The notes beneath the pieces were generated by a model that ran no database searches, was not told the DNA's origin, and saw only the letters and a list, made by a program, of their open reading frames with translations. Shown piece by piece: positions 15,529-51,293 of a stretch of DNA of 51,293 nt. Every line of letters starts with the position of its first letter. Position 1 is the first letter of the stretch. The stretch is from Lysobacterales bacterium (GTDB taxonomy: Bacteria > Pseudomonadota > Gammaproteobacteria > Xanthomonadales > SZUA-36). The stretch is taken from contig JABDPF010000014.1 in the NCBI GenBank assembly GCA_013042915.1, positions 1 through 51,293 of the forward strand, written 5' to 3'. Position numbers and translations under genes: made by a program.

Positions 15529-17919
15529 ATGGAAGTCAGAGACCTGTTCGAATCAATGGACTATGGATCGGCCCCCGAATCCCCGGACCGCGCCCGCCAA
15601 TGGCTGGACAAGCGCAAGGGCATACTGGATCACTTCATCGGCGGTCGGTGGGTGACGCCGGCGGGCGGCGAGTACTTCCCCACGCATAACCCGGCCAGCG
15701 GCGAACTGCTGGCCACGGTGGCCGACGGCAACGAGGCCGACGTGAACCGCGCGGTGGCCGCCGCAGCCGACGCGCTGGAAGGCTGGGTGGCGATCGGGGG
15801 ACACGGCCGCGCCCGCTACCTCTACGCCTTGGCGCGGCACATCCAGAAGCATGCCCGCCTGTTTTCCGTGCTCGAAAGCCTCGATAACGGCAAACCGATC
15901 CGCGAGTCCAGGGATGTCGATATCCCGCTGGTGGCCCGTCATTTCTATCACCACGCAGGCTGGGCGCAGGTTATGCGCGAAAGGCTGTCCTCGTATCGGC
16001 CGATCGGTGTTGTCGGGCAGATCATTCCCTGGAATTTCCCGCTGCTGATGCTGGCCTGGAAGGTAGCGCCTGCGCTGGCGATGGGTAACACCGTGGTGCT
16101 GAAACCAGCGGAGTACACGCCGACCACCGCCGTGCTGTTCGCGGAATTGTGCGAGGAAATCGGCCTGCCGCGCGGCGTGTTCAACGTGGTCCTGGGCGAC
16201 CACAAGGCGGGAGAGGCGCTGGTTCAACACCAGGAAGTGGGCAAGGTGGCGTTCACCGGGTCGACCGAGGTGGGCCGAATACTGCGGCGCGCCACGGCGG
16301 GCACCGGCAAGAAACTGACGCTGGAACTGGGCGGTAAATCGCCGTTTGTCGTATTTGACGACACCGATATCGACAGTGCGGTCGAAGGCCTGGTGGACGC
16401 TATCTGGTTCAACCAGGGGCAGGTCTGTTGTGCGGGATCGCGCCTGCTGGTCCAGGAATCGGTGGCCGAACGGTTGCACGAGAAAATCCGGAGAAGAATG
16501 GAACGGCTGGTGCTGGGTGATCCGCTGGACAAGAGCATCGACATCGGTTCGCTGGTAGACCCAACCCAACTGGAGCGCGTCAGGTCGCTGGTGGAAACCG
16601 GGGTCGAAGAGGGCGGCGAACTATGGCAACCGGACTGCAAGGTGCCGCGGGGCGGCAGTTATTATCCACCCACCCTGATCACGGAGGTCGCTCCCTCGGC
16701 GACGCTTGCCCAGGAAGAGATTTTCGGCCCGGTATTGGTCTCCTCGACATTCCGAACCCCGGCGGAGGCGGTCGCCTTGGCCAACAACAGCCGATACGGG
16801 CTGGCGGCCAGCGTGTGGACGGAAAACATCAACCTGGCCCTGGACGTGGCCCCAAAGCTGAAGGCCGGCACGGTTTGGATCAACTGCACCAACCAGTTCG
16901 ACGCCGCGTCCGGTTTTGGTGGATATCGCGAATCCGGTTTCGGCCGCGAGGGCGGTATCGAAGGAATCTACGAGTACGTCAAGCCGTTCTGGGAATCCCG
17001 CCTGAGCAAGGAGCCGGTGCAGCAATTGCCGCGCTTCGTGCCGGCCGAGGACAATTCCGATCCCGGCGGGCCGTCGATCGACCGCACCCCCAAGCTGTAC
17101 ATCGGCGGCAAGCAGTGCCGGCCCGACGGGGGCTACAGCAACGCGGCCTACGACGCGCACGGCGAGGTGATCGCCGAAGTGCCTGCCGGCAATCGCAAGG
17201 ACATCCGCAACGCGGTCGAGGCCGCGCGCAAGGCCGAGGGCTGGAGCAGTATGACGGCGCACGGTCGGGCCCAGATTCTGTACTTCCTGGCAGAGAACCT
17301 GAGTGCCCGCACCGACGAGTTCGTGGGCCGTATCGTGTCGCTCAGCGGCAAGGCCGATGACGCCGCACGGACCGAGTTCGAGCTGTGCATTCAGCGCATC
17401 TGGCACTACGCGGCCATGGCGGACAAATACGACTCCTACGTGCACGCAACACCGTTCCGCAACGTCACCCTGGCGATGAAGGAACCCCTCGGTGTGATCG
17501 GCATCGTGGCCCCCGAAGAAGCCGGGTTGCTCGGCTTCGTATCCACCGCGATGCCGGCGTTGGCTATGGGTAACCGCGTCGTGGTGGTGCCGTCGCAGCA
17601 CTACGCCCTGCTGGCCACCGATTTCTACCAGGTGCTGGACACCTCGGACGTGCCGGGCGGCGTGATCAACATTGTCACCGGTGACCAGGACGTGCTGGCC
17701 GACACCTTGGCCCGTCACCTGGACATCGAGGGTTTATGGTACTGGGGTAGCCGTTCGGGCAGCAGGATGATCGAGGAGGCAGCGGCCGAGTCGATGAAAC
17801 GCACCTGGGTAAATTACGGCCTGCACCATGACTGGTTCGACGCCGAGCAGGGACAGGGAGAGTCGTTCTTGCGGCGCGCCGTGGAAATCAAGAATATCTG
17901 GATTCCCTACGGCGAGTGA
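15529..17919 (+). CDS. Two-domain aldehyde dehydrogenase, ALDH16-type
   Basis: 796 residues made of two ALDH units. The first (about 30-505) is complete and should be active: IIPWNF with Asn169, Lys192 in VLKPAE, FTGSTEVG for NAD binding, Glu266 in LELGGK and catalytic Cys300 in NQGQVCCAGSR. The second (about 525-796) has recognisable Rossmann and ALDH landmarks (LYIGGKQ, EPLGVIGIVAPEEAG, ALAMGNRVVVVPSQ) but lacks a catalytic Cys and Glu and is shortened at the end. An active N-terminal and degenerate C-terminal ALDH domain in one chain of this size is the ALDH16 architecture known from bacteria and animals. Being 16 bases behind deoC, it most likely oxidises acetaldehyde to acetate, though ALDH16 enzymes accept several aldehydes. 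Confidence 0.88.
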   Translation: MEVRDLFESMDYGSAPESPDRARQWLDKRKGILDHFIGGRWVTPAGGEYFPTHNPASGELLATVADGNEADVNRAVAAAADALEGWVAIGGHGRARYLYALARHIQKHARLFSVLESLDNGKPIRESRDVDIPLVARHFYHHAGWAQVMRERLSSYRPIGVVGQIIPWNFPLLMLAWKVAPALAMGNTVVLKPAEYTPTTAVLFAELCEEIGLPRGVFNVVLGDHKAGEALVQHQEVGKVAFTGSTEVGRILRRATAGTGKKLTLELGGKSPFVVFDDTDIDSAVEGLVDAIWFNQGQVCCAGSRLLVQESVAERLHEKIRRRMERLVLGDPLDKSIDIGSLVDPTQLERVRSLVETGVEEGGELWQPDCKVPRGGSYYPPTLITEVAPSATLAQEEIFGPVLVSSTFRTPAEAVALANNSRYGLAASVWTENINLALDVAPKLKAGTVWINCTNQFDAASGFGGYRESGFGREGGIEGIYEYVKPFWESRLSKEPVQQLPRFVPAEDNSDPGGPSIDRTPKLYIGGKQCRPDGGYSNAAYDAHGEVIAEVPAGNRKDIRNAVEAARKAEGWSSMTAHGRAQILYFLAENLSARTDEFVGRIVSLSGKADDAARTEFELCIQRIWHYAAMADKYDSYVHATPFRNVTLAMKEPLGVIGIVAPEEAGLLGFVSTAMPALAMGNRVVVVPSQHYALLATDFYQVLDTSDVPGGVINIVTGDQDVLADTLARHLDIEGLWYWGSRSGSRMIEEAAAESMKRTWVNYGLHHDWFDAEQGQGESFLRRAVEIKNIWIPYGE

Positions 17920-37973: not shown

Positions 37974-38006
37974 CCTCCCGATGTTGATCCCTTGCAGGCG
38001 CGCAGC

Positions 38007-39167
38007 ATGAGCCCTTCCCCGGTTATTCCGGTTACCGCGGCCGACTACCGGCTGCTGGCAAAAAAGCGCCTGCCGCGCTTCCTGTTCGACTACATCGACG
38101 GCGGTGCCGGTGAAGAATGCTCACTGGCCCGCAACGTCGCTGCGTTCGGCTCGGTGGCTCTGAAGCAACGTGTGATGCGTGACGTCAGCCGTATCGATAC
38201 CGCGGCGATGCTCCTGGGACAGCGTGTTTCCATGCCCGTCGTCCTGGCGCCGGTTGCGCTTGCCGGCATGTACCGGCGGCGTGGCGAAGCCCAGGCGGCG
38301 CGGGGCGCGCGCAAGGCGGGCGTTCCTTTCACGACGTCCACGATGGGCATTTGCTCCGTGGCAGAGGTACAAGGGGCCGCTGGGGGCGGGTCCTGGTACC
38401 AGCTGTACATGTTGCGTGATCGCGGGGTGGTCGAAGCGATACTCGACCGCGTTCGGGACGCCGGGGTCGAGACCCTCGTATTCACGGTGGACCTGCCGAT
38501 GCTCGGCAAGCGTTACCGCGACGATCACAACGGCGTGATGGCCGGGGGCTTCAGGGGCGCGAGCGCCAAGGCCCTGCAATTGGTCAGCCGCCCGCGCTGG
38601 TTGTGGGACGTGGGCCTTCGCGGCAAACCGCACGATTTCGGCAACCTCGCCGGCGTCGTGCGTGGCGTGCGCGACCTGGACGGGTTCAAGGCGTTCATCG
38701 ACTCCCAGTTCGACCCCTCGGTCACCTGGGCAGACCTCGGCTGGTTGCGTGAGCGCTGGGCGGGGTCTCTCGTGATCAAGGGCGTGATGGGTACGCAGGA
38801 CGCGATTGCGGCGGCCGATGCGGGGGCTGATGCGGTCGTGGTTTCCAACCATGGTGGCCGCCAACTGGATGGCGTCGCATCGAGCCTGTCGAAGTTACCC
38901 GAAGTGGCGGACGCGGTGGGCGATCGGCTGGAGGTACTCATGGACGGCGGGGCGCGCAACGGCACCGACATCATCAAGGCGATCGCACGAGGCGCTCGCG
39001 GCGTCATGCTCGGACGCGCCTGGGCCTGGGCGCTGGCGGCACGGGGCGAGCGGGGCGTTGCCGACTTGCTCGAGGTGATTCAAATGGAAATCGCCAACTC
39101 GATGGCGCTGATGGGTGTCAACCGCATCGATGAGATCGATGCGGGCCGGGTCGAACCCAGCCCTTAA
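38007..39167 (+). CDS. FMN-dependent alpha-hydroxy-acid dehydrogenase (L-lactate dehydrogenase type)
   Basis: 386 residues from ATG 38007; a TTG at 37992 would add five residues. The TIM-barrel FMN enzyme family is clear from DYIDGGAGEE near the N-terminus, PVVLAPVALAGMYRRRGE, the FMN-phosphate region and VVSNHGGRQLDG with the catalytic His282 and the substrate-binding Arg two residues after the Gly pair, then MDGGARNGTDIIKA and GVMLGRAWAWAL. It resembles LldD more than glycolate or mandelate oxidase. The likely role is oxidation of L-lactate or a similar hydroxy acid to the 2-oxo acid, with electrons passed to quinones. The gene is 33 bases behind the peptidase and ends at a strong bidirectional hairpin. 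Confidence 0.88.
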   Translation: MSPSPVIPVTAADYRLLAKKRLPRFLFDYIDGGAGEECSLARNVAAFGSVALKQRVMRDVSRIDTAAMLLGQRVSMPVVLAPVALAGMYRRRGEAQAARGARKAGVPFTTSTMGICSVAEVQGAAGGGSWYQLYMLRDRGVVEAILDRVRDAGVETLVFTVDLPMLGKRYRDDHNGVMAGGFRGASAKALQLVSRPRWLWDVGLRGKPHDFGNLAGVVRGVRDLDGFKAFIDSQFDPSVTWADLGWLRERWAGSLVIKGVMGTQDAIAAADAGADAVVVSNHGGRQLDGVASSLSKLPEVADAVGDRLEVLMDGGARNGTDIIKAIARGARGVMLGRAWAWALAARGERGVADLLEVIQMEIANSMALMGVNRIDEIDAGRVEPSP

Positions 39168-39170
39168 GAA

Positions 39171-39194
39171 ACCGGGCCACTCGCGTGGCCCGGT
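39171..39194. terminator. Strong hairpin between convergent hydroxy-acid dehydrogenase and porin genes
   Basis: ACCGGGCCAC (39171-39180) and GTGGCCCGGT (39185-39194) form a perfect 10-bp stem with a TCGC loop, four bases after the plus-strand stop and 12 bases beyond the porin stop on the other strand. On the minus strand it is followed by TTCTT, so it probably terminates the porin transcript and may act for both. Confidence 0.65.
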
Positions 39195-39206
39195 CATCCG
39201 ATTGGA

Positions 39207-40553
39207 TCAGTAGGCGTACTTGGCGGAGAACTGGATGCGGTCCAGGTCGCCGTCGGTGCCGCTTTCGACTTCGCGGTTCGCGTGCATGTATTCCACGCCG
39301 AGGTCCAGCTTCGGCACCGGCGAGTAGATCAGGTTCACGTGAACGCTTGTGGCGTCGGTGGTCACGCCCATGCCGGTGAGTTCCGTTTCGTTATCCACGT
39401 CGAGGTAGCCCAGGGTCAGGTTGCTGCGCCATTTCTCGTTCCAGAAGTGGCGGTAGGAACCGAAGATGCCCATGGAGTCGATGGCTTCGAGGTTGCCGTC
39501 GGCATCGAGCACGGCGCCATTTGCCGTGTTCAGGCCGAGGTAGCGGCCCAGGCCGCTGCCGGCGCTGGCCATCCAGCGGAAATCGTCACGCTCGCCGATC
39601 ATGTGCTTGCCCGACACGCTGATGCCATAGCCGTAAGTGGAGTCGTCGATTCCGGCGGCCCGATTCTCGTACGCCAGTTCGCGCACGATGCCCGCCACGG
39701 TGACCGATCCGAAGTTGTAGCGCGCAACCAGGTCCGGGATCATGTTGTCGTCGGCAACGATCCGACCGCCTCCGCCGAACGGCGTGATGGTGGTTTCGGG
39801 GTTCTCGGCTGCAAACTGCCATTTGCCCGACGTATAACGGATCATCGCCTGCCGTCCGAAAATGGTGGATTCCGCCGGTCCGACGAAGTCCAGGTTCTCG
39901 GGCAGTGCCCCCACGTTGAAGAAGGTCATCCACGTTTGGCCGAACAGCCAGTTGTTGTACGTGAAGAAGGCATGGCGTAAGCGCGGGCTGAAGGAGTTCG
40001 AAACGCGTTCATTGCCCTGTCCGCTGAGAAGAAAATCCATCTCGATGAAGGTGCGCATCTTTGCGCCGTTATCCAGATTGTGGGTCGAACCGAAATTGAC
40101 CCGTGATTCCTTGGCGTGCATGTCCAGATAACTCTCACCGGCGTCACCGACCGGGATTGTGCCGGGGATGTAGAAGTCGCGACCCGCGCCGCTTGAGGGC
40201 CCGCCGCTGTAATCACTGTAGATCGTGTCCAGTTTCACGTAGCCGCCGAACTTGTAGCTGTGCTTGTGGACTTTCTCGGCCTCCACTGCCTCGTGGGCGG
40301 CGATCAGTTCCTCCACGCGCTGCTCGGCGATGGCCTCGGCTTTGGCCTCGGCGGCGGCTTCGATTTCAGCCGTGTTCGGTCCGCTGTCCGGCATCTTGTT
40401 GAGCAGCTGCGAGACCAGGGCCTCGAGTTCGGCAACGCGCGCCTCGAGTTCCTCTACGCGATCTCCATCAGCGAAAGCAGTGGTGGCGCCGCAGCCGAGA
40501 GCGGTCGCCACGGACAGACTGAGAAGTAACTTCCTGGTAGATTTCAGGGCCAT
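39207..40553 (-). CDS. DcaP-like trimeric outer-membrane porin
   Basis: 448 residues from the ATG at 40553, preceded by GGGAGAGG; a start at 40568 would add five residues. A signal peptide (to about residue 29, TTAFAD) is followed by a coiled-coil VEELEARVAELEALVSQLL that in DcaP proteins stabilises the trimer, an Ala/Glu-rich helix, and a 16-stranded barrel beginning near FGGYVKLDTIYSD and closing with IQFSAKYAY, with the required terminal aromatic. DcaP channels pass dicarboxylates and other small organic acids. It is divergent from the CrbR gene and carries, 68 bases before its start, the same TACGACYAAAG motif seen before the symporter operon, which suggests co-regulation with carboxylate uptake. 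Confidence 0.82.
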   Translation of the reverse strand: MALKSTRKLLLSLSVATALGCGATTAFADGDRVEELEARVAELEALVSQLLNKMPDSGPNTAEIEAAAEAKAEAIAEQRVEELIAAHEAVEAEKVHKHSYKFGGYVKLDTIYSDYSGGPSSGAGRDFYIPGTIPVGDAGESYLDMHAKESRVNFGSTHNLDNGAKMRTFIEMDFLLSGQGNERVSNSFSPRLRHAFFTYNNWLFGQTWMTFFNVGALPENLDFVGPAESTIFGRQAMIRYTSGKWQFAAENPETTITPFGGGGRIVADDNMIPDLVARYNFGSVTVAGIVRELAYENRAAGIDDSTYGYGISVSGKHMIGERDDFRWMASAGSGLGRYLGLNTANGAVLDADGNLEAIDSMGIFGSYRHFWNEKWRSNLTLGYLDVDNETELTGMGVTTDATSVHVNLIYSPVPKLDLGVEYMHANREVESGTDGDLDRIQFSAKYAY

Positions 40554-40620
40554 GTGAGCCTCTCCCAATTGGTAGTGTGCTCGTGCATGATCCTTCCTCG
40601 GGGCGCGACAGGGTATTAGC

Positions 40621-40631
40621 CTTTGGTCGTA
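40621..40631 (-). promoter_or_regulatory. Candidate CrbR site upstream of the porin gene
   Basis: Reads TACGACCAAAG on the minus strand. It matches TACGACTAAAG before the symporter operon at 10 of 11 positions, has the same orientation toward the gene, and nearly the same distance to the start codon (68 versus 69 bases). A -10-like GATCAT lies the same 39 bases downstream as TAACAT does at the other site, placing the motif at about -51 to -41. Confidence 0.45.
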
Positions 40632-40709
40632 AGGTGTGCGCGCTCAACCCTGTCACTATCGACGAAGGTCTATTGTTTTTTTGACGGTGAAGCTGGGAAA
40701 ATCGCGGTT

Positions 40710-41387
40710 ATGAGCCGACTCCTCGCAATCCAGGCGGAAACCGTTATCGTCGCGGACGATCACCCGCTGTTCCGCACAGCGATCAAAGAAGCGCTAGAAG
40801 CGGAGCAGGGTGAAACCCGGTTTCTCGAGGCGAGTTCCTTCGAGAGCCTGCAGGAACTCGTGGACCAAACCCGCGAGGTGGACCTCGTGTTGCTGGATCT
40901 GCACATGCCGGGCGTAAGCGGTTTTGCCGGGCTGGTTTACCTGTGCAAGCGCTACCCCAGTGTTCCGGTCGTCATTATCTCGGCCAACGAAGATCCGGTG
41001 GTGATTCGGCGAGCGCTGGAACACGGGGCGGCTGGTTTCATTCCCAAGTCGTCGAGCATCGATACCATTACCCAGGCCATATCGTCCATATTGCTCGGAG
41101 AGATCTGGGCGCCCGCGCCGGGCCGGTCCGAACTCGCGGGCCGGAGCGGATCCGAGTTGGAAATGGCTGAGCGGATGGCGCAATTGACACCGCAGCAGTT
41201 CAAGGTGCTGATGATGATGTCCCAGGGGCTGCTGAACAAACAGATTGCTTTTGATCTGGGAGTCTCCGAGGCCACGATCAAGGCACACGTCACGGCTATC
41301 ATGAACAAGCTCGGCGTCAGCAACCGCACCCAGGCCGTTCTGGCCGCCACCCAACTGGCCGTCGCCAACCCCAATTCAGCCAGGTAG
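40710..41387 (+). CDS. crbR: LuxR/NarL-family response regulator (CrbR-like)
   Basis: 225 residues from ATG 40710; an upstream in-frame start at 40623 would add 29 unlikely residues. The receiver domain (about 10-125) has Asp16-Asp17, phospho-acceptor Asp63 in LVLLDLHMPG, Ser91 and Lys113. The C-terminal LuxR helix-turn-helix (about 160-220) has LLNKQIAFDLGVSEATIKAHV. It ends nine bases from the convergent end of the CrbS-like kinase gene, and its neighbours match the known CrbS/CrbR acetate-switch locus, where CrbR activates acs and actP-type genes. Activation of the symporter operon, the synthetase and possibly the porin is the expected role; no binding data can be derived from the sequence. 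Confidence 0.82.
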   Translation: MSRLLAIQAETVIVADDHPLFRTAIKEALEAEQGETRFLEASSFESLQELVDQTREVDLVLLDLHMPGVSGFAGLVYLCKRYPSVPVVIISANEDPVVIRRALEHGAAGFIPKSSSIDTITQAISSILLGEIWAPAPGRSELAGRSGSELEMAERMAQLTPQQFKVLMMMSQGLLNKQIAFDLGVSEATIKAHVTAIMNKLGVSNRTQAVLAATQLAVANPNSAR

Positions 41388-41396
41388 TCAGCAGGC

Positions 41397-44300
41397 TTAA
41401 CGGTTTTTCAGGGTGTTCGTCATCAGTGCCCTAAGTGCGGCCGGCTTGATGGGCTTGCGCAGAAGGCCGTATTTCATGCGGCGGACTTCCTCTTCCAGTT
41501 CGGGTGAGCGGTCGGCGGTGATAACGATGGTCGGGAGACGCTTCCCGAGCAGTTCCTCGAGATACGCCATGACGTCCAGCCCGAACACCTGTTGCGACAG
41601 GTGATGATCGACCAGCACCATGTCGGGCGGGCCGTGTTCCTTGACGCGTTGAACGGCTTGCTCACGATCCTGGGCGAGCAGCACCGTGCAACCCCAGCGG
41701 TCGAGCAACAGGTTCATTCCCTCGAGAATATCCGCCTCGTTGTCGATGCAGAGCACAGCCAGTCCTTGCAGACGCGGATGGTCGCTGCGCGGTGCGTCTT
41801 TGGGTCGCTGGGCCTCGATGCGTTCCCTCGAGGCCAGTGGAACCGTCACCGAAAACGTGCTGCCGTGCCCCGGGCGGGAACGAACTTCCATCCGGTGCCC
41901 CAGCATGTGCGCGATGCGATCACAGATCGCCAGGCCCAGCCCCAGTCCCTTTTCCTCCAGCCGATGCGCGTAATCCAGGCGATGGAACTCCTGGAAAATG
42001 GCCCGGGAATCGTCCTCGGCGATGCCAACGCCCGTGTCGCTGACGCGGAAGCGCAGGTGGTCACCTCGGCGCTGGCAGGAGAGGAGGACGCCGCCGCTCT
42101 CGGTGTAGCGGATCGCGTTGGACAGGAAATTCTGCAGGATTCGATAGAGCAGGTTGCGATCGCTGAACACCTGATCCTTTCGACCGCGCACGCGCAGCTG
42201 CAAGTCCCGGTTGGCCGCCAGGGGCTGGAAGCGTCGTCGAAGCTGCTCGAATAACTCGCTGACCTCGATGACCTCCGGATCGGGTTCGTACATGCCCGAG
42301 TCGAGCTTCGAAATATCCAGTAGCGCGCCGAGCAGTTCTTCCGCCGCGGTCAGGCTACGGTCCACGCGTTTGACCAGCCGGGCTTCTTCGTCACCACCTT
42401 CGCCGGCCTGTTGCCGAAGGATGGAAACGAACAGGCGTGCGGCGTTGATGGGTTGCAACAGGTCGTGGCTCGCCGCGGCCAGGAAACGTGTCTTGCTTCT
42501 ATTTGCGCTTTCCGCGGTTTTGCGTGCTTCCTCGAGGTCAGCATTGGCCTCGCTGAGTTCTTGTGTGCGTTGCCTCACCCGCTGCTCCAGCGTTTCATTG
42601 ATGAGTTTCAACTCGCTGGCAATCGTCTTGAAATGGGTGATGTTGGAGAATGTCGTGACGTAGCCGCCACCGGGCAGCGGGTTACCCTGGATTTCGATCA
42701 CGCTCCCGTCAGGCCAGCTTCGTTCGAAGCGGTAGTGATCCCCCCCCCGTAGCAAATCGAGCCGCTTTCGAACGGCGGCTTCGGACGTGCCTCCCCGAAT
42801 CAGCCCGCGAGTCGCGTTGTGTCGAATCAATTCTTCAACAGGCTGTCCCAGGTAGACCATGCCGTCCGGATAATTCATTAGCTCGAGGTAGCTCTGGTTC
42901 CATCCCACCAGCCGAAGGTCCTTGTCGATCACGGCGACACCCTGGGACATGTTGTCCAGGGTAGCTTGCAGAAGCTCGCGGTTGAACTGGACCGCCTGGG
43001 AGGTTTGATTCAACAGCTCGAAAACGGCCTCGGGCCCCAGGCCGCGATGGTGCAAAGCGGTCGTCAGCACGCTGCGTGCCGAGGCCGAACCGATCGATCC
43101 GGCCAGCAGTCGTTCGCCAAATTGCACCGTGGCCGGCGTGGCCAACGCGTCCGCTTCCAGGTGGTTGCTGTGCAGGTGGGTCTCCAGCGCCCGACGCGTG
43201 GAATCGCGGCCCAGAAAACGGCCGAGGGTGTTCTCGAGTTCGCCAAGCGTGATGAGCCCTGCATCGGGTTCCTCGCGCTCGGCTTTGCGGCGCCTGACGG
43301 TGTCTTCGCTGAACATCAGCGAAACGACCACGACCGCCAGCGCGTTCAGTGCCAGGGACCATGCGGCGCCCTGGTTGAACGCGACGTCGGGCAGGCCGGT
43401 CGCTTCCGAGCCCGCCAGGGATGGCAGTAGCAGCAGCACAAACCAGCCACCGACGCCCACGGTCAGGCCGCTCAACGCACCCGCTCGGTTGGCGCCAGGC
43501 CAATAGAGGCCGATCAGCATCGCGGGAGCGAATTGCGCCGCCGCCGAAAACGAAAGCAGACCGATGGACGCCAGCGGCACGCCGGCTTCAATGGCTTGGT
43601 AGTAGGCATAAGCGAGCAACGAGATAGCCACGATCGAAATACGGCGCACACGCAGTAACGTGCGTGACAGGTCGGTTTCCCCGCGAACGCCGGCCATGCC
43701 GCTGCGCAGCAGAAGGGGCATCACGATGTCGTTGCTCACCATGATGGCCAGGGCAACGGTCGCCACGATGACCATTCCGCTGGCGGCCGAGAAGCCGCCC
43801 AAAAACGCCAGCACCGTGAGCGCCTCTTTGTCGAACGCGATGGGTAGCGCGAGTACGTAGCTGTCCGGATGAACGTCCTGGCCGCCGAATTGCACGAGAC
43901 CTGCCAATGCAATCGGCATCGCCAGGATGGCGAACACGGCCAGGTAAGAGGGAAACAGCCAGCGGGCCGTCTTCAGTTCCCGAATGTCCCTGAATTCAAC
44001 AATCGCCACGTGAAATTGCCGGGGCAGGCACAGGATGGCGGTCATGGCCAGCACCAGTTGGATACCGAATCCTTCGGGCAGTCGCCAGGGCGAAAAGAGC
44101 TCCTGGTAGTTCTGGTTCTCGCGAACGGTGGCGGCCACCTCGCCGAATCCACCAAAGATGCCGAATATGACGAACAAGCCGATGGCGAGAAAGGCCAGCA
44201 GCTTGACCAACGACTCGAAGGCGATGGCCCACATCAACCCGCGGTGATGCTCGCTGGCGTCCAGGGTGCGCGTACCGAACAGGGTGGCGAATAGCGCTAG

Positions 44301-44801
44301 CGTCAGCGCCACGTAAAGTGACAACTCTCCGGGAAGAGCCGCGTCGTTGGTGACCGAGCCTGCGACCACGTTGAATCCGTTCGTGATGCCTTTGAATTGA
44401 AGAGCGATATACGGGACCGAGCCGATTACCGCCGCCAGCGTCACCAGCACGGCAATGCTGTGGCTTCGGTCGTAGCGGTGGGCGATGAAGTCGGCGATCG
44501 ACGTGATTCGCTGATGGTGGCTGATGGTCGCGATCCGCCGGAGCAGGTCGAAGCCGAACAGCATCAGCAAGGCCGGGCCGAGGTAGATCGGCAAATAGCC
44601 CCAGCCCGTCGTGGCCGCGCTGCCGACCGCGCCGTAAAAGGTCCAAGACGTGCAGTAAACCGCCAGTGAAAGTGAATAAATGACGGCCTGGATGTTGCGA
44701 TGGTCGCGTGCAATGCGCTTGCGGTCACCAATCCAGGCGATGGCGAACAGCAGCCCCATGTAGGCCAGTGCGGTCGTGATCAGGGACCAGGTGCTGAGCA
44801 T
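41397..44801 (-). CDS. crbS: Hybrid sensor histidine kinase with sodium:solute symporter domain (CrbS-like)
   Basis: 1134 residues. Residues about 1-490 are a sodium:solute symporter-like domain of some 12-13 helices, beginning LITTALAYMGLLFAIAW. A linker leads to a PAS domain (about 610-740, with VAVIDKDLRLVGWNQSYLELM), a coiled coil, a HisKA domain with phospho-acceptor His779 (AASHDLLQPINAARL), an HATPase domain (NFLSNAIRYT, DTGVGIAEDDS, KGLGLGLAI) and a C-terminal receiver with Asp1065 (MVLVDHHLS). This is the CrbS/MxtR architecture, in which the transporter-like domain is thought to couple carboxylate or ion flux to signalling. Start: GGAG upstream of ATG 44801. It is divergent from the symporter operon across 92 bases and convergent to crbR. 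Confidence 0.88.
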   Translation of the reverse strand: MLSTWSLITTALAYMGLLFAIAWIGDRKRIARDHRNIQAVIYSLSLAVYCTSWTFYGAVGSAATTGWGYLPIYLGPALLMLFGFDLLRRIATISHHQRITSIADFIAHRYDRSHSIAVLVTLAAVIGSVPYIALQFKGITNGFNVVAGSVTNDAALPGELSLYVALTLALFATLFGTRTLDASEHHRGLMWAIAFESLVKLLAFLAIGLFVIFGIFGGFGEVAATVRENQNYQELFSPWRLPEGFGIQLVLAMTAILCLPRQFHVAIVEFRDIRELKTARWLFPSYLAVFAILAMPIALAGLVQFGGQDVHPDSYVLALPIAFDKEALTVLAFLGGFSAASGMVIVATVALAIMVSNDIVMPLLLRSGMAGVRGETDLSRTLLRVRRISIVAISLLAYAYYQAIEAGVPLASIGLLSFSAAAQFAPAMLIGLYWPGANRAGALSGLTVGVGGWFVLLLLPSLAGSEATGLPDVAFNQGAAWSLALNALAVVVVSLMFSEDTVRRRKAEREEPDAGLITLGELENTLGRFLGRDSTRRALETHLHSNHLEADALATPATVQFGERLLAGSIGSASARSVLTTALHHRGLGPEAVFELLNQTSQAVQFNRELLQATLDNMSQGVAVIDKDLRLVGWNQSYLELMNYPDGMVYLGQPVEELIRHNATRGLIRGGTSEAAVRKRLDLLRGGDHYRFERSWPDGSVIEIQGNPLPGGGYVTTFSNITHFKTIASELKLINETLEQRVRQRTQELSEANADLEEARKTAESANRSKTRFLAAASHDLLQPINAARLFVSILRQQAGEGGDEEARLVKRVDRSLTAAEELLGALLDISKLDSGMYEPDPEVIEVSELFEQLRRRFQPLAANRDLQLRVRGRKDQVFSDRNLLYRILQNFLSNAIRYTESGGVLLSCQRRGDHLRFRVSDTGVGIAEDDSRAIFQEFHRLDYAHRLEEKGLGLGLAICDRIAHMLGHRMEVRSRPGHGSTFSVTVPLASRERIEAQRPKDAPRSDHPRLQGLAVLCIDNEADILEGMNLLLDRWGCTVLLAQDREQAVQRVKEHGPPDMVLVDHHLSQQVFGLDVMAYLEELLGKRLPTIVITADRSPELEEEVRRMKYGLLRKPIKPAALRALMTNTLKNR

Positions 44802-44814
44802 GGAACTCCGGTTC

Positions 44815-44825
44815 TACGACTAAAG
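44815..44825 (+). promoter_or_regulatory. Candidate CrbR site upstream of the symporter operon
   Basis: TACGACTAAAG, embedded in the inverted repeat CTAC-N7-GTAG (44814-44828), 69 bases before the DUF4212 start codon and 14 bases upstream of the crbS start on the other strand. A TAACAT at 44854-44859 could be the -10 element. A near-identical element with matching geometry precedes the porin gene. Confidence 0.5.
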
Positions 44826-44893
44826 TAGGGGCGTTTAAGCGATGGCCGCAACGTAACATAGCGATCGGGAAACTACCATCGGAGAGACTGCTC

Positions 44894-45154
44894 ATGAGTG
44901 AACAAACCAGCGGACAGGCTTACTGGAAAGCGAACCTCAAATTGATCGCGGGCTGCCTCGCGGTTTGGTTCGTGGTGTCGTACCTGTTTGGAATTCTTCT
45001 CGTGGATCAGCTCAACGCTATCACCATTGGCGGGTATGAGCTTGGATTCTGGTTCGCCCAACAGGGTTCGATATACGTTTTTGTCATCCTGATCTTTTTT
45101 TACGCCTTCAGGATGAACAAGATTGATCGCGAATTCGGCGTCCACGAGGAGTGA
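44894..45154 (+). CDS. DUF4212 small subunit of a sodium:solute symporter
   Basis: 86 residues with two transmembrane helices (about 19-40 and 52-73) and short charged ends; it starts after GGAGAG. The sequence YWKANLKLIAGCLAVWFVVS and the end FRMNKIDREFGV match the DUF4212/sodium-substrate symporter small subunit family, functionally parallel to YjcH next to ActP. It lies ten bases before the large symporter gene with its own ribosome-binding site and is the first gene behind the candidate CrbR site. It probably forms a complex with the large subunit. Confidence 0.85.
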   Translation: MSEQTSGQAYWKANLKLIAGCLAVWFVVSYLFGILLVDQLNAITIGGYELGFWFAQQGSIYVFVILIFFYAFRMNKIDREFGVHEE

Positions 45155-45164
45155 GGGAGATACC

Positions 45165-46943
45165 ATGGAACTTCAAACACTGACTTACCTTGTCGTCGGC
45201 GCCACCTTCGCGCTGTACATCGGTATCGCCATTTGGGCCCGTGCGGGCACCACCGGCGAATTCTACGTGGCCGGCACCGGCGTGCACCCGGTGGCCAACG
45301 GCATGGCCACGGCGGCGGACTGGATGTCCGCGGCATCGTTTATCTCGATGGCCGGCCTGATCGCGTTCCTGGGCTACGACGCCTCGGTTTACCTGATGGG
45401 CTGGACCGGTGGCTACGTGTTGCTGGCATTGTTGCTGGCGCCCTACCTGCGCAAGTTCGGCAAGTTCACCGTGCCGGAATTCGTCGGCGACCGCTTTTAT
45501 TCCAAGGGGGCCCGGCTGGTGGCTGTCATCTGCCTGATCGTCGCGTCCATCACCTACGTCATCGGCCAGATGAAAGGTGTGGGCGTAGCATTCGGCCGCT
45601 TCCTCGAGGTGCCTTTTGAATGGGGCGTCATGATCGGTATGGCCATCGTGTTCGTTTACGCGGTGCTCGGCGGTATGAAAGGCATTACCTACACGCAGAT
45701 CGCCCAATATTGCGTATTGATTTTCGCCTATACCGTGCCGGCGATCTTCATCTCGCTCAACCTGACTGGTCAAGCGCTCCCCCAGATAGGACTGGGTAGT
45801 ACGATGGAAGGCTCGAACGTCTTTCTGCTGGATAAACTGGACCAGGTGGTGACTGACCTGGGATTTGCGGCCTACACGGCTCAGAAAGGCGGGACCCTGA
45901 ACATCTTCCTGCTTACCCTTTCGCTGATGATCGGAACGGCGGGCCTGCCGCACGTGATCGTGCGCTTCTTTACCGTTCCCAAAGTATCCGACGCGCGCAA
46001 GTCCGCCGGTTGGGCACTGGTGTTCATCGCCATCCTCTACACGACCGCACCGGCCGTCGGCGCCATGGCGCGCCTCAATTTGATCGAGACGATCCAGACC
46101 GGTGAGATCGGATCGCCAGCCGGTAACCTGGTCTACGAGGAACGGCCGCAGTGGTTCAAGAACTGGGAGACCACCGGGTTGCTGGCCTTTGAAGACAAGA
46201 ACGGCGACGGCCGCATCCAGTACTACAACGATGGCAACCCGGAGTTTGCGGCAAAAGCCGAAGCGTGGGGCTGGGAAGGCAACGAGATGGTCAAGGTCGA
46301 CCGCGATATCATGGTTCTGGCCAATCCTGAAATCGCCAGTCTGCCCAACTGGGTGATCGCCCTGGTGGCGGCCGGTGGCCTGGCAGCGGCGCTCTCGACC
46401 GCGGCCGGTCTGTTGCTCGCGATTTCTTCTGCCATCTCGCACGACCTGCTGAAAGGTATGATCGCGCCGAGTATCTCAGAGAAGAAAGAACTGATGGCAA
46501 GCCGCATCGCAATGGCGGGCGCCATCCTGGTGGCCGGTTACCTGGGCATGAACCCGCCGGGCTTTGCCGCCCAGGTGGTCGCGCTGGCCTTTGGCCTGGC
46601 CGCCTCATCGATATTCCCGGTCCTGATGATGGGCATCTTCAACAAGAAGATGAACCGCGAGGGCGCCATTGCCGGCATGCTGGCGGGCCTGCTTTCGACG
46701 CTGATCTACATTTTCTGGTTCAAGGGCTGGTTCTTCGTGCCCGGGACCGAGATGGCGCCCAACACGGCCGACCACTGGTTCATGGGTATATCACCGGAGG
46801 CCTTCGGTGCGGTGGGCGCCCTGCTGAACTTCGTCGTCGCCTGGGTCGTTTCAAAGGTGACCTCGGCTCCGCCGGAGCACATCCAGCACCTGGTGGAAGA
46901 CATCCGCGTGCCGAGAGGCGCGGGGGCTGCCGTGGATCATTGA
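45165..46943 (+). CDS. Sodium:solute symporter (VC_2705-type, carboxylate uptake)
   Basis: 592 residues from ATG 45165 with GAGGGAG upstream; an in-frame TTG at 45123 would add 14 residues. It has about 13 hydrophobic helices of the SSS fold with family landmarks ASFISMAGLIAFLGYDA, FTVPEFVGDRFY, GGMKGITYTQIAQY and GGLAAALSTAAGLLLAI. An extracytoplasmic insertion (about 320-380) contains an EF-hand-like loop starting at Asp344 (DKNGDGRIQYY). In the conserved acetate-switch neighbourhood this protein acts as an ActP-like importer of acetate or related short-chain acids. It ends 22 bases before a strong terminator. Confidence 0.87.
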   Translation: MELQTLTYLVVGATFALYIGIAIWARAGTTGEFYVAGTGVHPVANGMATAADWMSAASFISMAGLIAFLGYDASVYLMGWTGGYVLLALLLAPYLRKFGKFTVPEFVGDRFYSKGARLVAVICLIVASITYVIGQMKGVGVAFGRFLEVPFEWGVMIGMAIVFVYAVLGGMKGITYTQIAQYCVLIFAYTVPAIFISLNLTGQALPQIGLGSTMEGSNVFLLDKLDQVVTDLGFAAYTAQKGGTLNIFLLTLSLMIGTAGLPHVIVRFFTVPKVSDARKSAGWALVFIAILYTTAPAVGAMARLNLIETIQTGEIGSPAGNLVYEERPQWFKNWETTGLLAFEDKNGDGRIQYYNDGNPEFAAKAEAWGWEGNEMVKVDRDIMVLANPEIASLPNWVIALVAAGGLAAALSTAAGLLLAISSAISHDLLKGMIAPSISEKKELMASRIAMAGAILVAGYLGMNPPGFAAQVVALAFGLAASSIFPVLMMGIFNKKMNREGAIAGMLAGLLSTLIYIFWFKGWFFVPGTEMAPNTADHWFMGISPEAFGAVGALLNFVVAWVVSKVTSAPPEHIQHLVEDIRVPRGAGAAVDH

Positions 46944-46965
46944 TCGCCGGTAATTTTGCAACAAG

Positions 46966-46995
46966 AAGGGCCGGTCATTCGACTGGCCCTTTTTT
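46966..46995 (+). terminator. Rho-independent terminator of the symporter operon
   Basis: AAGGGCCGGTC (46966-46976) pairs with GACTGGCCCTT (46981-46991) with one G-U and an ATTC loop; the T-run TTTTTT occupies 46990-46995. It is the clearest intrinsic terminator in the window and separates DUF4212-symporter from the DUF294 gene. Confidence 0.88.
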
Positions 46996-47012
46996 CATCT
47001 TCGCGGGAAACA

Positions 47013-47018
47013 TAGAAT
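47013..47018 (+). promoter_or_regulatory. -10-like element just before the DUF294 gene
   Basis: TAGAAT matches the -10 consensus at five of six positions and ends six bases before the ATG at 47025. If used, transcription would begin at or next to the start codon, giving a leaderless message; no ribosome-binding sequence is visible at the normal distance. There is no good -35, so activator dependence is possible. Confidence 0.3.
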
Positions 47019-47024
47019 CTAACC

Positions 47025-48848
47025 ATGCATGACGTCACGCTGGCCACAGAGTTTCTGCACACGGTTCCGCCGTTCAACTCCCTGGCGACCAATGATCTGG
47101 AAAAGCTGTCTCGAAGGCTGGAAGCCGCCTACTACCCACAGGACCAGGAAATATTCAGATCGGGTTCTTCGCCGGGCCTCGCGGTCATCCGCAAGGGCGC
47201 GGTGCGCCTGGTCGACCCCGATCACAAGTTTCTGGACAAGCGTTCCGAAGGGGAATTGTTCGGTCACGGCATTTACTTTCACGGCGAGTTGAAAGAGTAC
47301 ATCGCCGAGGCGGAAGAGGACTGCCTGTTGTGGCATCTGAAGCCGGATGATTTTACGGAGCTCAGAGAGCAGCATCCCCTGCTCGAAGAATACTTCAGCA
47401 GCCACCTGGCGACCCGGCTAAGGGCTGCGGCCCACGTGCGTGACTCGGTGACACAGGTCAGGGACCTGCTCAAGCGCGAACCGGTCAGGACGGACGGCAA
47501 TACCTCGATCGTGGATGCCGCCCGCTTGATGAGCGAGCACAATGTCTCCAGCGTTCTGGTCATGAGGGACGGAGTCCTGGGGGGTATCGTCACCGACAAG
47601 GACCTGCGACAACGCGTTATCGCAGCGGGCGTCGATCCGCTGCAGCCGATCTGCGAGGTTATGACCGGCAGCCCCATGACGCTGGAGGCGGATTCGGATA
47701 TCGACGCCGCCTTGTTGCTGATGATGCGCGAAAACTACCATCACCTTCCCGTTATCGAGGATGGACGGCCGGTCGGGCTGGTCACGGCGGGCGATATTCT
47801 GCGGGCGCAGTCCGAACACCCCTTGAGGCTGGTGCGCGATATTCACAAGCGCCAGTCGGTCGACGAGCTCGTTCGCCTCAGCCGTCGGCTACCTTCGCTG
47901 TTCGAACGGATGGTGACTTTGGGCCGGGATGTTCAGCAAATCGGACGGATGGTCACGCACATCACGGACGCGTTCACGATCAGGCTGATTCAACTGGCCG
48001 AAGCACGGCTGGGCACACCGCCGATGCACTATGCCTGGGTCGTGTTCGGTTCGCAGGCTCGTGAGGAGCAAACGGCACGAACAGACCAGGACAACGGCCT
48101 GGTGCTTGAGCGGAAGGCGGACGAGGACGAAGTGGAGTACTTCAGCCATTTGTCAGAATTCGTTTGCGATGGGCTCGACAAGCTGGGTTACGTTTACTGC
48201 CCCGGCAACATCATGGCCATGAATCCGAAGTGGCGCGTCTCTCTGCCCAAGTGGAAACGGCATTTCGACGGCTGGATCGATGAACCCGAACCAAAATCCG
48301 TGATGCACAGCAGCATTTTTTTCGACATGCGCTGCGTGCACGGTCGTCGTGGCCTGGTCGAGGAACTGCTTAAGCACGCGACCAAGCGCGCTAAGACAAA
48401 TCGCATTTTCCGACGCTTCATGGCGGCCAACGTGTTGGCTCACCGCCCGCCGATCGGCTTCTTCCGGCGTTTCGTTCAGGAAGACGACGGTTCCCAAAGC
48501 GAGGGCTTGAACCTGAAACACCGGGGGATCGTGCCGATCATCGACCTGGTCAGAATCCGTGCGCTGGAAGCCGGCGTAAGCCACCCCAACACCTTCCGGC
48601 GTCTCGAGGAGGTGACCGCGCGCGGCATTGTCAACAAGGGCGATGCCCGCAGCCTGCGGGACGCACTGGTGCTGATCAGCCGAATCCGCCTCGCTCACCA
48701 GGCCGAACAAATGTCGATGGGGCAGGATCCGACGAATTTTGTGCCGCCCGATGAGCTTTCTCCGCTGATGCGACGCAACCTGAAGGCCGCTTTCATGCTG
48801 GTTGTCGAAGCGCAGAATGCGTTGGCTCATCGATACCAGGTGCACTGA
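47025..48848 (+). CDS. DUF294 nucleotidyltransferase-like protein with cyclic-nucleotide and CBS domains
   Basis: 607 residues: cNMP-binding-like domain (about 10-130, with IFRSGSSPGLAVIRKGAVRL), two CBS domains (about 145-265), and a DUF294 nucleotidyltransferase domain (about 300-440) with FGSQAREEQTARTDQDNGL, the G-S-x-x-R-x-E…D-x-D signature of the GlnD/Pol-beta superfamily, followed by a helical DUF294 C-terminal domain. The NTP-binding residues look intact, so enzymatic nucleotidylation of a partner is possible. Members of this family stand regularly beside symporter and acetyl/propionyl-CoA synthetase genes and are presumed to tune them in response to nucleotides. The stop overlaps the exonuclease start by one base. 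Confidence 0.85.
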   Translation: MHDVTLATEFLHTVPPFNSLATNDLEKLSRRLEAAYYPQDQEIFRSGSSPGLAVIRKGAVRLVDPDHKFLDKRSEGELFGHGIYFHGELKEYIAEAEEDCLLWHLKPDDFTELREQHPLLEEYFSSHLATRLRAAAHVRDSVTQVRDLLKREPVRTDGNTSIVDAARLMSEHNVSSVLVMRDGVLGGIVTDKDLRQRVIAAGVDPLQPICEVMTGSPMTLEADSDIDAALLLMMRENYHHLPVIEDGRPVGLVTAGDILRAQSEHPLRLVRDIHKRQSVDELVRLSRRLPSLFERMVTLGRDVQQIGRMVTHITDAFTIRLIQLAEARLGTPPMHYAWVVFGSQAREEQTARTDQDNGLVLERKADEDEVEYFSHLSEFVCDGLDKLGYVYCPGNIMAMNPKWRVSLPKWKRHFDGWIDEPEPKSVMHSSIFFDMRCVHGRRGLVEELLKHATKRAKTNRIFRRFMAANVLAHRPPIGFFRRFVQEDDGSQSEGLNLKHRGIVPIIDLVRIRALEAGVSHPNTFRRLEEVTARGIVNKGDARSLRDALVLISRIRLAHQAEQMSMGQDPTNFVPPDELSPLMRRNLKAAFMLVVEAQNALAHRYQVH

Positions 48849-49534
48849 TGCTTCGTCGCTGGCGTTATCGGCGAAAATGCGGGGCATTGGCCGCGCGGGC
48901 GGAACCCGGTGTACTGCAGCGCTATCTGCAGGCGGGCGGCGATATGCGGCCCGGAGATATCCAGGAGACGCCAATGATCGCGGCCGACCTGGAATTGACG
49001 GGTCTGAACGCCGCGGCCGACCAGATTATTTCGGTTGGCTGGACGCTGATCGATGACGGTCGTGTTCGCCTCGGCACGAATCGCCACGTGCTTGTTACCG
49101 CCAGCCGGACCGTGGGTTCGAGTGCCGCCATCCACGAACTGATGGACAACGAGGTAGCGGGGGGCGTTGAGCCCGGCGAGGCGCTGTCGCAGCTGTTCGA
49201 AGCGGCTGCGGGACGCGTCTGGGTTTTCCACCACGCCGCGCTGGATGTGGCCTTTCTGCAGCGTGCATGCCGGGAATGGGCGGGCATGGCGCCGCCCTTT
49301 GCGGTGCTCGACACGATGCAAATTGAACTCGGATGGCGCAAGCGTCGCGACCAGCCCGTGAAGCAGGGCGACCTGCAGCTCAGCAAATTGCGCTCGGATT
49401 ATCATCTGCCGCGTTACACGGCGCACAACGCCTTGGTCGATGCCCTGGCCACGGCCGAACTGCTGCTTGCCATCGCGGCCCGGCTGGATCGAAAGAAGCC
49501 ACTGGATATCGCGCCGTATCTTCGATACGCCTGA
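48848..49534 (+). CDS. DnaQ-like 3'-5' exonuclease
   Basis: 228 residues. The DEDDh nuclease signature is present: Exo I ADLELTGLN (Asp and Glu at about residues 45 and 47), Exo II HHAALDVAFLQ, and Exo III with YTAHNALVDALATAELLLA (His and Asp). An N-terminal extension of about 40 residues precedes the nuclease fold. The family resembles the DNA polymerase III epsilon subunit, but stand-alone members next to DUF294 genes are recurrent in the acetate-switch neighbourhood without a proven role. It is translationally coupled to DUF294 (TGATG) and ends 68 bases before the synthetase gene. Confidence 0.85.
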   Translation: MLRRWRYRRKCGALAARAEPGVLQRYLQAGGDMRPGDIQETPMIAADLELTGLNAAADQIISVGWTLIDDGRVRLGTNRHVLVTASRTVGSSAAIHELMDNEVAGGVEPGEALSQLFEAAAGRVWVFHHAALDVAFLQRACREWAGMAPPFAVLDTMQIELGWRKRRDQPVKQGDLQLSKLRSDYHLPRYTAHNALVDALATAELLLAIAARLDRKKPLDIAPYLRYA

Positions 49535-49602
49535 CGCCGATCAGGGGCATACATACAAATTCAGGGATCATCGGTACCACAACATTCGAGGGTTAACGGA
49601 TC

Positions 49603-51293
49603 ATGTCTTACAAAACCACCTACCAACAATCGATCGAGCAACCGGATACGTTCTGGGCCGAGGCAGCCCAAGCCCTGCACTGGGATTCTCCCTGGGACAA
49701 GGTGCTCGACGACTCGGACGCACCGTTTTACAAGTGGTTCAGCGGGGGCGAGATGAATACGTGCTACAACGCGCTGGATCGGCATTGCGAAAACGGCCGG
49801 GCAGGGCAGGCGGCACTGATCTACGACAGTGCCGTTACCGGACAGGCCAGGACGTACAGCTACCAGGAACTGCGGGACGAGGTGGCCCAGTTCGCCGGTG
49901 CGCTTCGCGAACGGGGTGTGACGAAAGGCGAGCGGGTGATCCTGTACATGCCGATGATTCCCGAAGCCGTGATCGCCATGCTGGCCTGCGCGCGAATCGG
50001 CGCCATCCATTCGGTAGTATTCGGTGGATTCGCCGCCCAGGAACTCGCCACGCGCGTGCTGGATGCCCGGCCCCGGCTGATCGTCAGCGCAACCTGCGGT
50101 ATCGAGGGCCAACGGGTCATTCCCTACATGCCGCTGCTGGAGAAGGCTCTGGAACTTGCCGATGCCGAGGACCTTCCGTGCATCGTGGTTTCCCGGCCTC
50201 AGCTGCCGATCGAAGACACACCACTGAAAGCCGATACCTGGGAAGACGCCATGAAGAGCGCCGAGCCGGCGGACTGCGTGCCGGTCGAGGCAACCGAGCC
50301 GCTCTATATCCTGTACACCTCCGGTACCACCGGCGCACCCAAGGGCGTGGTCCGTCCCAGCGGTGGGCACGCGGTGGCGCTGGATTGGACGATGAGTGCC
50401 ATCTACGACGTGCAGCCCGGGGAGGTTTACTGGGCCGCATCCGACATTGGCTGGGTCGTGGGACATTCCTACATCGTATACGCGCCACTGCTGCACGGCT
50501 GCACGACCATCCTGTTCGAGGGCAAGCCGGTCGGGACACCCGACGCCGGCGCTTTCTGGCGCGTGATCGAACAGCACGGCGTCAACTGCCTGTTCACGGC
50601 GCCTACCGCGTTTCGCGCGATCCGGCAACAGGACCCCGAGGGGGTTTTACTGGAAAATTACGACATTTCCAGTCTTCGAACCTTGTTCCTGGCCGGTGAA
50701 CGGTGCGATCCGGACACCTTGCAATGGGCTGAGAAAAAACTTGAAGTTCCTGTCATAGACCACTGGTGGCAAACGGAAAGTGGATGGGCCATGGCCGCCA
50801 ACCCGATGGGCATCGAGCCGCAGGAGGTCAAGGCAGGCTCGCCCACGGTCGCGGTACCGGGCTACGACATTCGCGTGCTGGACGATACGGGCCAGGAGGT
50901 CGCGCCCGGGCAATCGGGAAACATCGTCTGCAAGCTGCCCCTTCCTCCGGGAACGTTGCCCACGCTGTGGGGCAATCGGCAACGGTTTTACGACACCTAC
51001 CTTGCCCGTTTCAAAGGGTACTACCTCAGCGGCGACGCCGGCGTCGTGGACGAGGAGGGCTACGTCTGGGTGATGAGCCGAATCGACGACGTGATCAATG
51101 TGGCCGGACACCGCTTGTCCACGGGGGCACTGGAAGAGGCGCTCGCGACCCACCCGGTAGTGGCCGAGTGCGCGGTGATCGGGGTATCGGACACGTTGAA
51201 GGGCGAGATGCCGCTTGGATTCGTGGTGCTGAGCGCCGGTGCGGACGTGGACGAAGACACGCTGCGCAAGGAGTTGGTGCAGACCGTGCGCGC
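49603..51293 (+). CDS. prpE: PrpE/ACSS3-type acyl-CoA synthetase (partial, runs off the window)
   Basis: 563 codons are visible; E. coli PrpE has 628, so about the last 60 are missing. The N-terminus (SYKTTYQQSIEQPDTFW, FYKWFSGGEMNTCYNALDRH) and LYTSGTTGAPKGVV, VNCLFTAPTAFRAIRQQ and HWWQTESGWAM match propionyl-CoA synthetase more closely than AcsA. SRIDDVINVAGHRLSTG marks the C-terminal lid; the Pro-x4-Gly-Lys motif with the acetylatable catalytic Lys lies beyond the edge. It activates propionate and probably acetate to CoA esters with ATP. The usual partner of CrbS/R loci is acetyl-CoA synthetase, so the substrate range is of interest. The start has GAGGG about ten bases upstream; no CrbR-like motif is visible in the 68-base gap. 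Confidence 0.88.
   Translation, partial: MSYKTTYQQSIEQPDTFWAEAAQALHWDSPWDKVLDDSDAPFYKWFSGGEMNTCYNALDRHCENGRAGQAALIYDSAVTGQARTYSYQELRDEVAQFAGALRERGVTKGERVILYMPMIPEAVIAMLACARIGAIHSVVFGGFAAQELATRVLDARPRLIVSATCGIEGQRVIPYMPLLEKALELADAEDLPCIVVSRPQLPIEDTPLKADTWEDAMKSAEPADCVPVEATEPLYILYTSGTTGAPKGVVRPSGGHAVALDWTMSAIYDVQPGEVYWAASDIGWVVGHSYIVYAPLLHGCTTILFEGKPVGTPDAGAFWRVIEQHGVNCLFTAPTAFRAIRQQDPEGVLLENYDISSLRTLFLAGERCDPDTLQWAEKKLEVPVIDHWWQTESGWAMAANPMGIEPQEVKAGSPTVAVPGYDIRVLDDTGQEVAPGQSGNIVCKLPLPPGTLPTLWGNRQRFYDTYLARFKGYYLSGDAGVVDEEGYVWVMSRIDDVINVAGHRLSTGALEEALATHPVVAECAVIGVSDTLKGEMPLGFVVLSAGADVDEDTLRKELVQTVR

Follow-up and report, generated by a model that had tools for sequence, protein, structure and literature searches.

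ACTU-type sites beside crbR and crbS as probable operators for a porin gene, crbR and a symporter operon in a Lysobacterales bacterium

The stretch of DNA analyzed here, referred to as the window, comprises 51,293 nucleotides from the draft genome of a Lysobacterales bacterium (2.69 Mb in 105 contigs). It contains a cluster in which a porin gene (minus strand), crbR (plus) and crbS (minus) are followed on the plus strand by the genes for a DUF4212 small subunit and its symporter, and then by those for a cNMP/CBS/DUF294 protein, an RNase_T exonuclease and a PrpE/Acs-like synthetase (Table 1). The porin and crbR genes are separated by 156 bp and the crbS and DUF4212 genes by 92 bp, and since both pairs are divergent, each gap can hold outward promoters. 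The top NCBIfam model for the synthetase was propionate--CoA ligase (2.3e-210), a match below the cut-off for a protein that is truncated. An FMN-dependent L-lactate dehydrogenase-like gene (37992-39167) is convergent with the porin gene. Between the symporter and DUF294 genes lies a terminator-like hairpin with a T run (46973-46988), a class of feature found at chance level (13 matches versus 10.0 expected), so the genes downstream of the symporter may depend on read-through or on a promoter of their own. No Rfam RNA element reached gathering scores in 38500-51293.

The protein encoded by crbR contains a receiver and a LuxR-type helix-turn-helix domain, and its closest model is NCBIfam ErdR (8e-70), with a score that falls short of the curated cut-off (234.9 versus 390 bits). 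It is 84% identical to CrbR of a Lysobacterales metagenome-assembled genome and 79% identical to that of a gammaproteobacterial one, and 42-46 of the 59 positions of its DNA-binding domain are identical in CrbR-like proteins of Shewanella, Marinobacter, Stenotrophomonas and Xanthomonas. When CrbS was compared with the architecture SLC5-STAC-PAS-HisKA-HATPase-REC, the Pfam families SSF (weakly), PAS_7, HisKA, HATPase_c and REC were matched, and STAC was not among the matches listed.

Table 1. Genes and promoter features of the crb cluster, in positions of the window
Feature	Position	Strand	Basis or remark
DcaP-like outer-membrane porin gene	39207..40553	-	Pfam DcaP 6.3e-24
-10-like GATCAT of porin promoter	40587..40592	-	39 bases from site start
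ACTU-type site of porin promoter, TACGACCAAAGGCTAAT	40615..40631	-	matrix 18.7, conserved placement
Third ACTU-type site, before crbR, ATCGACGAAGGTCTATT	40658..40674	+	matrix 10.1
crbR (erdR), receiver + LuxR-type DNA-binding domain	40710..41387	+	Pfam Response_reg, GerE; NCBIfam ErdR
crbS, symporter-like membrane part + PAS + HisKA + HATPase + receiver	41397..44801	-	Pfam
ACTU-type site of DUF4212/symporter promoter, best as CCCTACTTTAGTCGTAG on minus strand	44814..44830		matrix 10.8
-35 position, GCGTTT, poor consensus	44831..44836	+	17 bases before -10
-10-like TAACAT of symporter promoter	44854..44859	+	conserved in aligned rows
DUF4212 symporter small subunit	44894..45154	+	TIGR03647 7.8e-35
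Sodium/solute symporter, VC_2705 family	45165..46943	+	TIGR03648 6.5e-261
cNMP/CBS/DUF294 protein	47025..48848	+	Pfam
RNase_T 3'-5' exonuclease	48848..49534	+	Pfam RNase_T
PrpE/Acs-like acyl-CoA synthetase, cut by window end	49600..51291	+	NCBIfam

A sequence-only reading of this DNA had described a shared motif, TACGACYAAAG, with identical geometry before the two genes that flank crbR and crbS, and had proposed it as a site of activation by CrbR. When the sequence was re-read, TACGACTAAAG was found at 44815-44825 (plus) and TACGACCAAAG at 40621-40631 (minus), with the orientation claimed and with their last bases 69 and 68 bases before the start codons of the DUF4212 (44894) and porin (40553) genes. 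The TAACAT and GATCAT hexamers (the latter read from 40592 to 40587) likewise both begin 39 bases after the start of the motif, and the CTAC-N7-GTAG dyad is present at 44814-44828. The motif is thus real as described, but its length is 17 bp rather than 11, and its third copy, before crbR, had been missed. A further proposal, that ACTACCA is a common leader element, held for the two leaders in the window but not beyond them: none of 14 aligned relatives keeps ACTACCA before the porin gene, for which it was ruled out, and the TACCA before DUF4212 is kept in 14 of 14 aligned rows.

A genome-wide scan with TACGACYAAAG gave two exact matches, both in the gaps beside crbR and crbS, and no unrelated match; the reversed control gave four. 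With up to two mismatches, the window contained 10 matches versus 9.8 expected from shuffled sequence. As these counts are not above the controls, the evidence lies in placement, not number. By hand arithmetic from the control rate, ~0.0004 matches are expected in the 248 bp of gap, a post hoc figure, since the motif was chosen after being seen; conservation is a stronger test than this expectation, and the sites are conserved, as described below.

The comparison with Pseudomonas that the sequence-only reading had suggested identifies TACGACYAAAG as the left part of the 17-bp ACTU motif, a known kind of site by which bacteria switch on genes for acetate uptake. CrbR-mediated activation depends on this motif, which in P. 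fluorescens occupies -52 to -36 relative to the acs start site (Sepulveda and Lupas, 2017; PMC5715377; here and below, statements on published work refer to the available portions of the papers cited). One of the sites in Table 4 of that paper, TACGACTAAAGTCTAAA (PFLU0447), has its first 12 bases in common with the symporter site, and the porin site differs at one position from an ACTU consensus that we wrote from the same table, making it the top match in the genome. With up to three mismatches this consensus found 25 genomic matches, 24 of them with three, and its reversed control found 47. A scoring matrix built only from the six P. fluorescens sites of that table ranked the porin site first in the window, a site at 16337 second (11.4), the symporter site third and the crbR site fourth, so three of the top four matches sit in the two crb gaps; the match at 16337 falls inside a 796-aa reading frame. 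For scale, the best score per random 350-bp stretch of the fetched loci had a median of 4.3 and a 95th percentile of 10.6, true sites included. The symporter and crbR sites and three of 15 porin sites in the relatives (9.8-10.4) lie near that percentile, so the case for them comes from conservation and position, not from score. The right arm is GGC in the porin site and GTA, for GTC, in the symporter site, whose forward reading scores only 7.4.

Counts of a relaxed 17-mer pattern, written after seeing the sites of relatives, do not exceed the control, though genomes with crb genes have more. In the host genome there were 8 matches with up to two mismatches (reversed control, 14), and the porin site alone had fewer than two; with up to one mismatch, 38 were found in 15 crb genomes (control, 44) and 8 in 16 genomes without a found CrbR (control, 29). 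Of the nine exact matches in these 31 relatives, eight fall within the crb cluster and the ninth precedes a hydrogenase gene of genome G020; the 16 genomes without a found CrbR have none.

If transcription is taken to start 12 bases downstream of the first base of the -10 hexamer, the 17-mers span -52 to -36 (symporter) and -51 to -35 (porin), so the inferred promoter geometry reproduces the published placement. Consensus σ70 -35/-10 pairs were absent from 39100-49600 (0 found versus 2.4 expected in shuffles), which suits activator-dependent promoters. The symporter operator also begins 13 bases before the crbS start codon (44802-44830), and binding there could affect crbS expression as well.

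For comparison with relatives, 61 genomes, 37 of them of the same family (host included), were searched with CrbR, and 36 loci around its homologs were fetched. A clear ortholog (at least 72% identity, E of at most 3.5e-99) was found in 16 of the 37, the rest having only distant family members. The symporter site was present in all 14 same-family crb genomes that have DUF4212 and in none of 13 that lack the crb system. In 13 genomes with CrbR the sites score 10.8-18.1 at -102 to -108 from the model start, and the fourteenth, G014 (no CrbR found, 77% complete), has a site of 10.8 at -107 and was counted as crb because crbS lies beside its DUF4212 gene on the same contig; where DUF4212 was present without any crb gene being found (13 genomes), the upstream maximum was 6.3. 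These counts omit three genomes with CrbR and no DUF4212 match (G023, G030, G035), a second DUF4212 fragment of G026 and a sub-cut-off remnant in G011. In the aligned promoters of the 14 crb genomes, GACTAAAGTAG occurs in all and GTAACATAG in 13, with variable flanks; GCGT at the -35 position is conserved in all 14, and the -10-like element is TAACAT in 13 and TACCAT in one. A tree containing 10 of the 14 crb genomes, all 13 others and one outgroup needs four changes of the crb label, three of them forced by well-supported branches, so the 14-to-0 split is not a set of independent events. The symporter operator is solid in this family and not universal outside it: two of four order-level loci with DUF4212 have the site, and among the 28 named loci that have DUF4212, each of which also carries crbR and crbS, 11 score at least 10 (L172 and L179 reach 23.6), eight score 7-8.8 and nine, many of them from Halomonas relatives, have nothing of 6 or more.

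The porin site is similarly placed across the family. It is found in forward orientation at -78 to -81 from the start codon in all 15 crb genomes with the porin on the contig (scores 9.8-18.8; G033, whose contig begins inside crbR, is omitted), and [CG]AT[CG]AT occurs at the same 39-base spacing in 13 of the 15, the window included. Among 19 order-level loci, all 10 with a porin homolog have a matrix match of at least 12.9 in the scanned upstream stretch, the top match being a second site in some of them (L045-L047). The porin is present in 13 of 80 named loci; three of these 13 (L167, L172 and L179) lack a porin-upstream match of 6 or more, and L116, L117 and L156 belong to genomes included in the counts above.

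The most telling test comes from natural losses, in which the putative operators vanish with the regulator. In G016, the porin gene (a contig-edge fragment) and the symporter have been kept and other genes fill the interval expected for crbR and crbS; its porin site has decayed (GTTGATCAAAGACAAAT, 3.1), with the promoter region downstream still recognizable, and its DUF4212 gene has a different upstream neighbor and no site. In G011, which has no CrbR ortholog, the porin retained beside a DUF4212 remnant is 67% identical, and no site before it exceeds 5.7. Both are ~90% complete drafts, so either may yet carry a CrbR elsewhere. None of 11 distant porins from these genomes has a site above 5.8.

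Counterparts of the third site are found 56-57 bp before crbR in L028-L031 (forward, 9.4-13.6), and sites occur at -169 (20.0) in L034 and -132 (17.6) in L037; L032, L033 and L038 have no separate crbR site within 250 bp, and an exact relaxed match lies farther upstream in the genome of L038 (G031:C19:127475). In five of 15 genomes with both genes on the contig, acs lies between the porin gene and crbR, and the site there precedes acs, scoring 18.5-20 in four of the five and 11.1 in the fifth. The simplest history we can infer is that acs moved out of the gap and its operator, shared with crbR, stayed behind, with the result that CrbR would now feed back on itself. The expectation that acs itself would be a target did not hold for the host, whose stand-alone acs has a weak best score of 8.6 and is not supported as a regulon member; stand-alone acs genes are without a clear site in nine of 10 such rows from crb genomes. 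Scores of 15.9 (G014) and 13.7 (G003) occur ~290 bp before stand-alone acs genes, and an acs site of 18.9 in G027 (60% complete), where no CrbR was detected, is unexplained or reflects incompleteness. A prpE-like gene and the CBS/DUF294 gene do lie downstream of the symporter.

A separate lead came from matches to the relaxed pattern. ACTU-like sites scoring 18.8-21.4 lie ~200-350 bp before the small-subunit gene of an uptake [NiFe]-hydrogenase in L244 (G017), L245 (G003) and L246 (G020), three of the 13 upstream regions that could be scored, a fourteenth being too short. Such a hydrogenase is present in 11 of the 37 genomes, all with crb genes, and it is possible that it is an additional CrbR target in these relatives. 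A hydrogenase region of the host draft (G000:C67, L250) and one in a genome of another genus (G005:C22, L251) are identical at 1135 of 1138 bases, suggesting a mis-binned contig or a very recent transfer.

From motif match, spacing, conservation and co-loss with the crb genes, the motifs are very probably ACTU-type operators of CrbS/CrbR that serve the porin, crbR and DUF4212/symporter promoters. The earlier proposal of activation by CrbR from about -45 is supported by the ACTU match, by the way the sites track the crb system in same-family relatives and by the lack of any unrelated exact 11-mer in the genome. A chance resemblance of two 11-mers, in keeping with a genome-wide count below that of the reversed control, is refuted by conservation in 14 and 15 genomes and by the association with crb presence, and hardly any weight is left for it. 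It is also quite improbable that the sites are real operators that answer to a different NarL/LuxR-type regulator, with its gene elsewhere in the genome. The CrbR query has 14 matches in the host genome in all, which shows that the family has further members there, and half-sites can be common to such proteins; yet genomes that have lost CrbR have lost the sites too while retaining other members of the family, and the sites match the motif that PMC5715377 ties to CrbR.

A role as silencers or autoregulatory brakes, in place of activation or in addition to it, is unlikely but deserves some weight, for example with CrbR repressing crbS. Binding at the symporter site, which begins at 44814, could hinder expression from the crbS start codon at 44801, but the gap to crbS is ~50 bp longer in six of 14 aligned crb relatives (139-142 versus 90-99), so this closeness is not conserved, and the conserved -10-like elements lie at a distance from the sites that suits activation of the symporter and porin genes.

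In the activation scheme favored here, of which binding, phosphorylation, signal and activation are the inferred parts, CrbS would be a membrane kinase with a symporter-like sensor domain that phosphorylates CrbR in response to a short-chain carboxylate, for example acetate. Bound to the 17-bp imperfect inverted repeat, which directly precedes a poor -35 element, CrbR would then recruit RNA polymerase, serving the porin promoter, the crbR promoter (a positive feedback) and the DUF4212/symporter promoter, perhaps together with the genes downstream. The comparative data suggest that this switch also governs an outer-membrane pore gene in this group, and it probably governs its own regulator gene too; the best reading of the set formed by the porin gene, crbR (acs-crbR in some relatives) and DUF4212/symporter is as new targets of a known motif. 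A DcaP-like porin would in this way join a regulon that, in the literature cited, comprises metabolic enzymes, a CBS protein and a symporter of the inner membrane, and the family supplies natural losses of candidate operator and regulator together. A bolder idea, which we hold tentatively and with some doubt, is that the crb switch has been rebuilt in this Lysobacterales family as a self-amplifying uptake module for short-chain carboxylates that runs from outer membrane to cytoplasm (porin, symporter, prpE-like enzyme and regulator), and that in the lineage of the window, where acs is gone from the gap and its operator would drive crbR, the module may be retuned from acetate, perhaps to propionate.

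Co-regulation of outer- and inner-membrane transport would be sensible, since growth of Acinetobacter on di- and tricarboxylic acids depends on DcaP3 (PMC12338516), a paper whose available text does not contain the word 'acetate'. No direct link between CrbR/ErdR and a porin was found in the literature searched, which lay mostly outside subscription journals, and the word 'porin' is absent from the available text of PMC8402216 and PMC9927547. The nearest link is the porin gene PP_2662 in the ped alcohol cluster, CrbRS being a proposed upstream activator of other ped-cluster genes in P. aeruginosa (PMC12997753). The 'CrbR' of PMC4364456 denotes carbenicillin resistance and is not this regulator.

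Compared with the P. fluorescens CrbS/R system (PMC5715377), the sites described here share a 17-bp imperfect inverted repeat with a GAC/TAC-N4-GTC core and a predicted placement at about -52 to -36, next to a putative σ70 promoter; the gene after the symporter encodes PP_0354/PFLU5625-like domains (a comparison by domain). The two differ in that DUF485/ActP there is replaced here by a DUF4212/VC_2705-type symporter, that the candidate targets here are the DcaP-like porin gene, crbR and the DUF4212/VC_2705-type symporter, that the right arms of the porin and symporter sites are changed, and that the stand-alone acs of the host is without a clear site. In P. putida KT2440, the MxtR/ErdR system has a regulator homologous to CrbR (PMC8402216; PMC9927547), with erdR (PP_1635) and mxtR (PP_1695) apart by locus tags (PMC12997753). 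ErdR gave gel shifts with the PP_0354, scpC and actP-I promoters and did not bind that of acsA-I (PMC8402216), which, like the stand-alone acs here, is without a recognizable motif (PMC8402216; PMC9927547). The target PP_0354 is a CBS-domain protein whose gene is co-transcribed with that of the RNase_T-like PP_0353 (PMC9927547), and the domains of this pair match those of the two genes that follow the symporter gene in the window.
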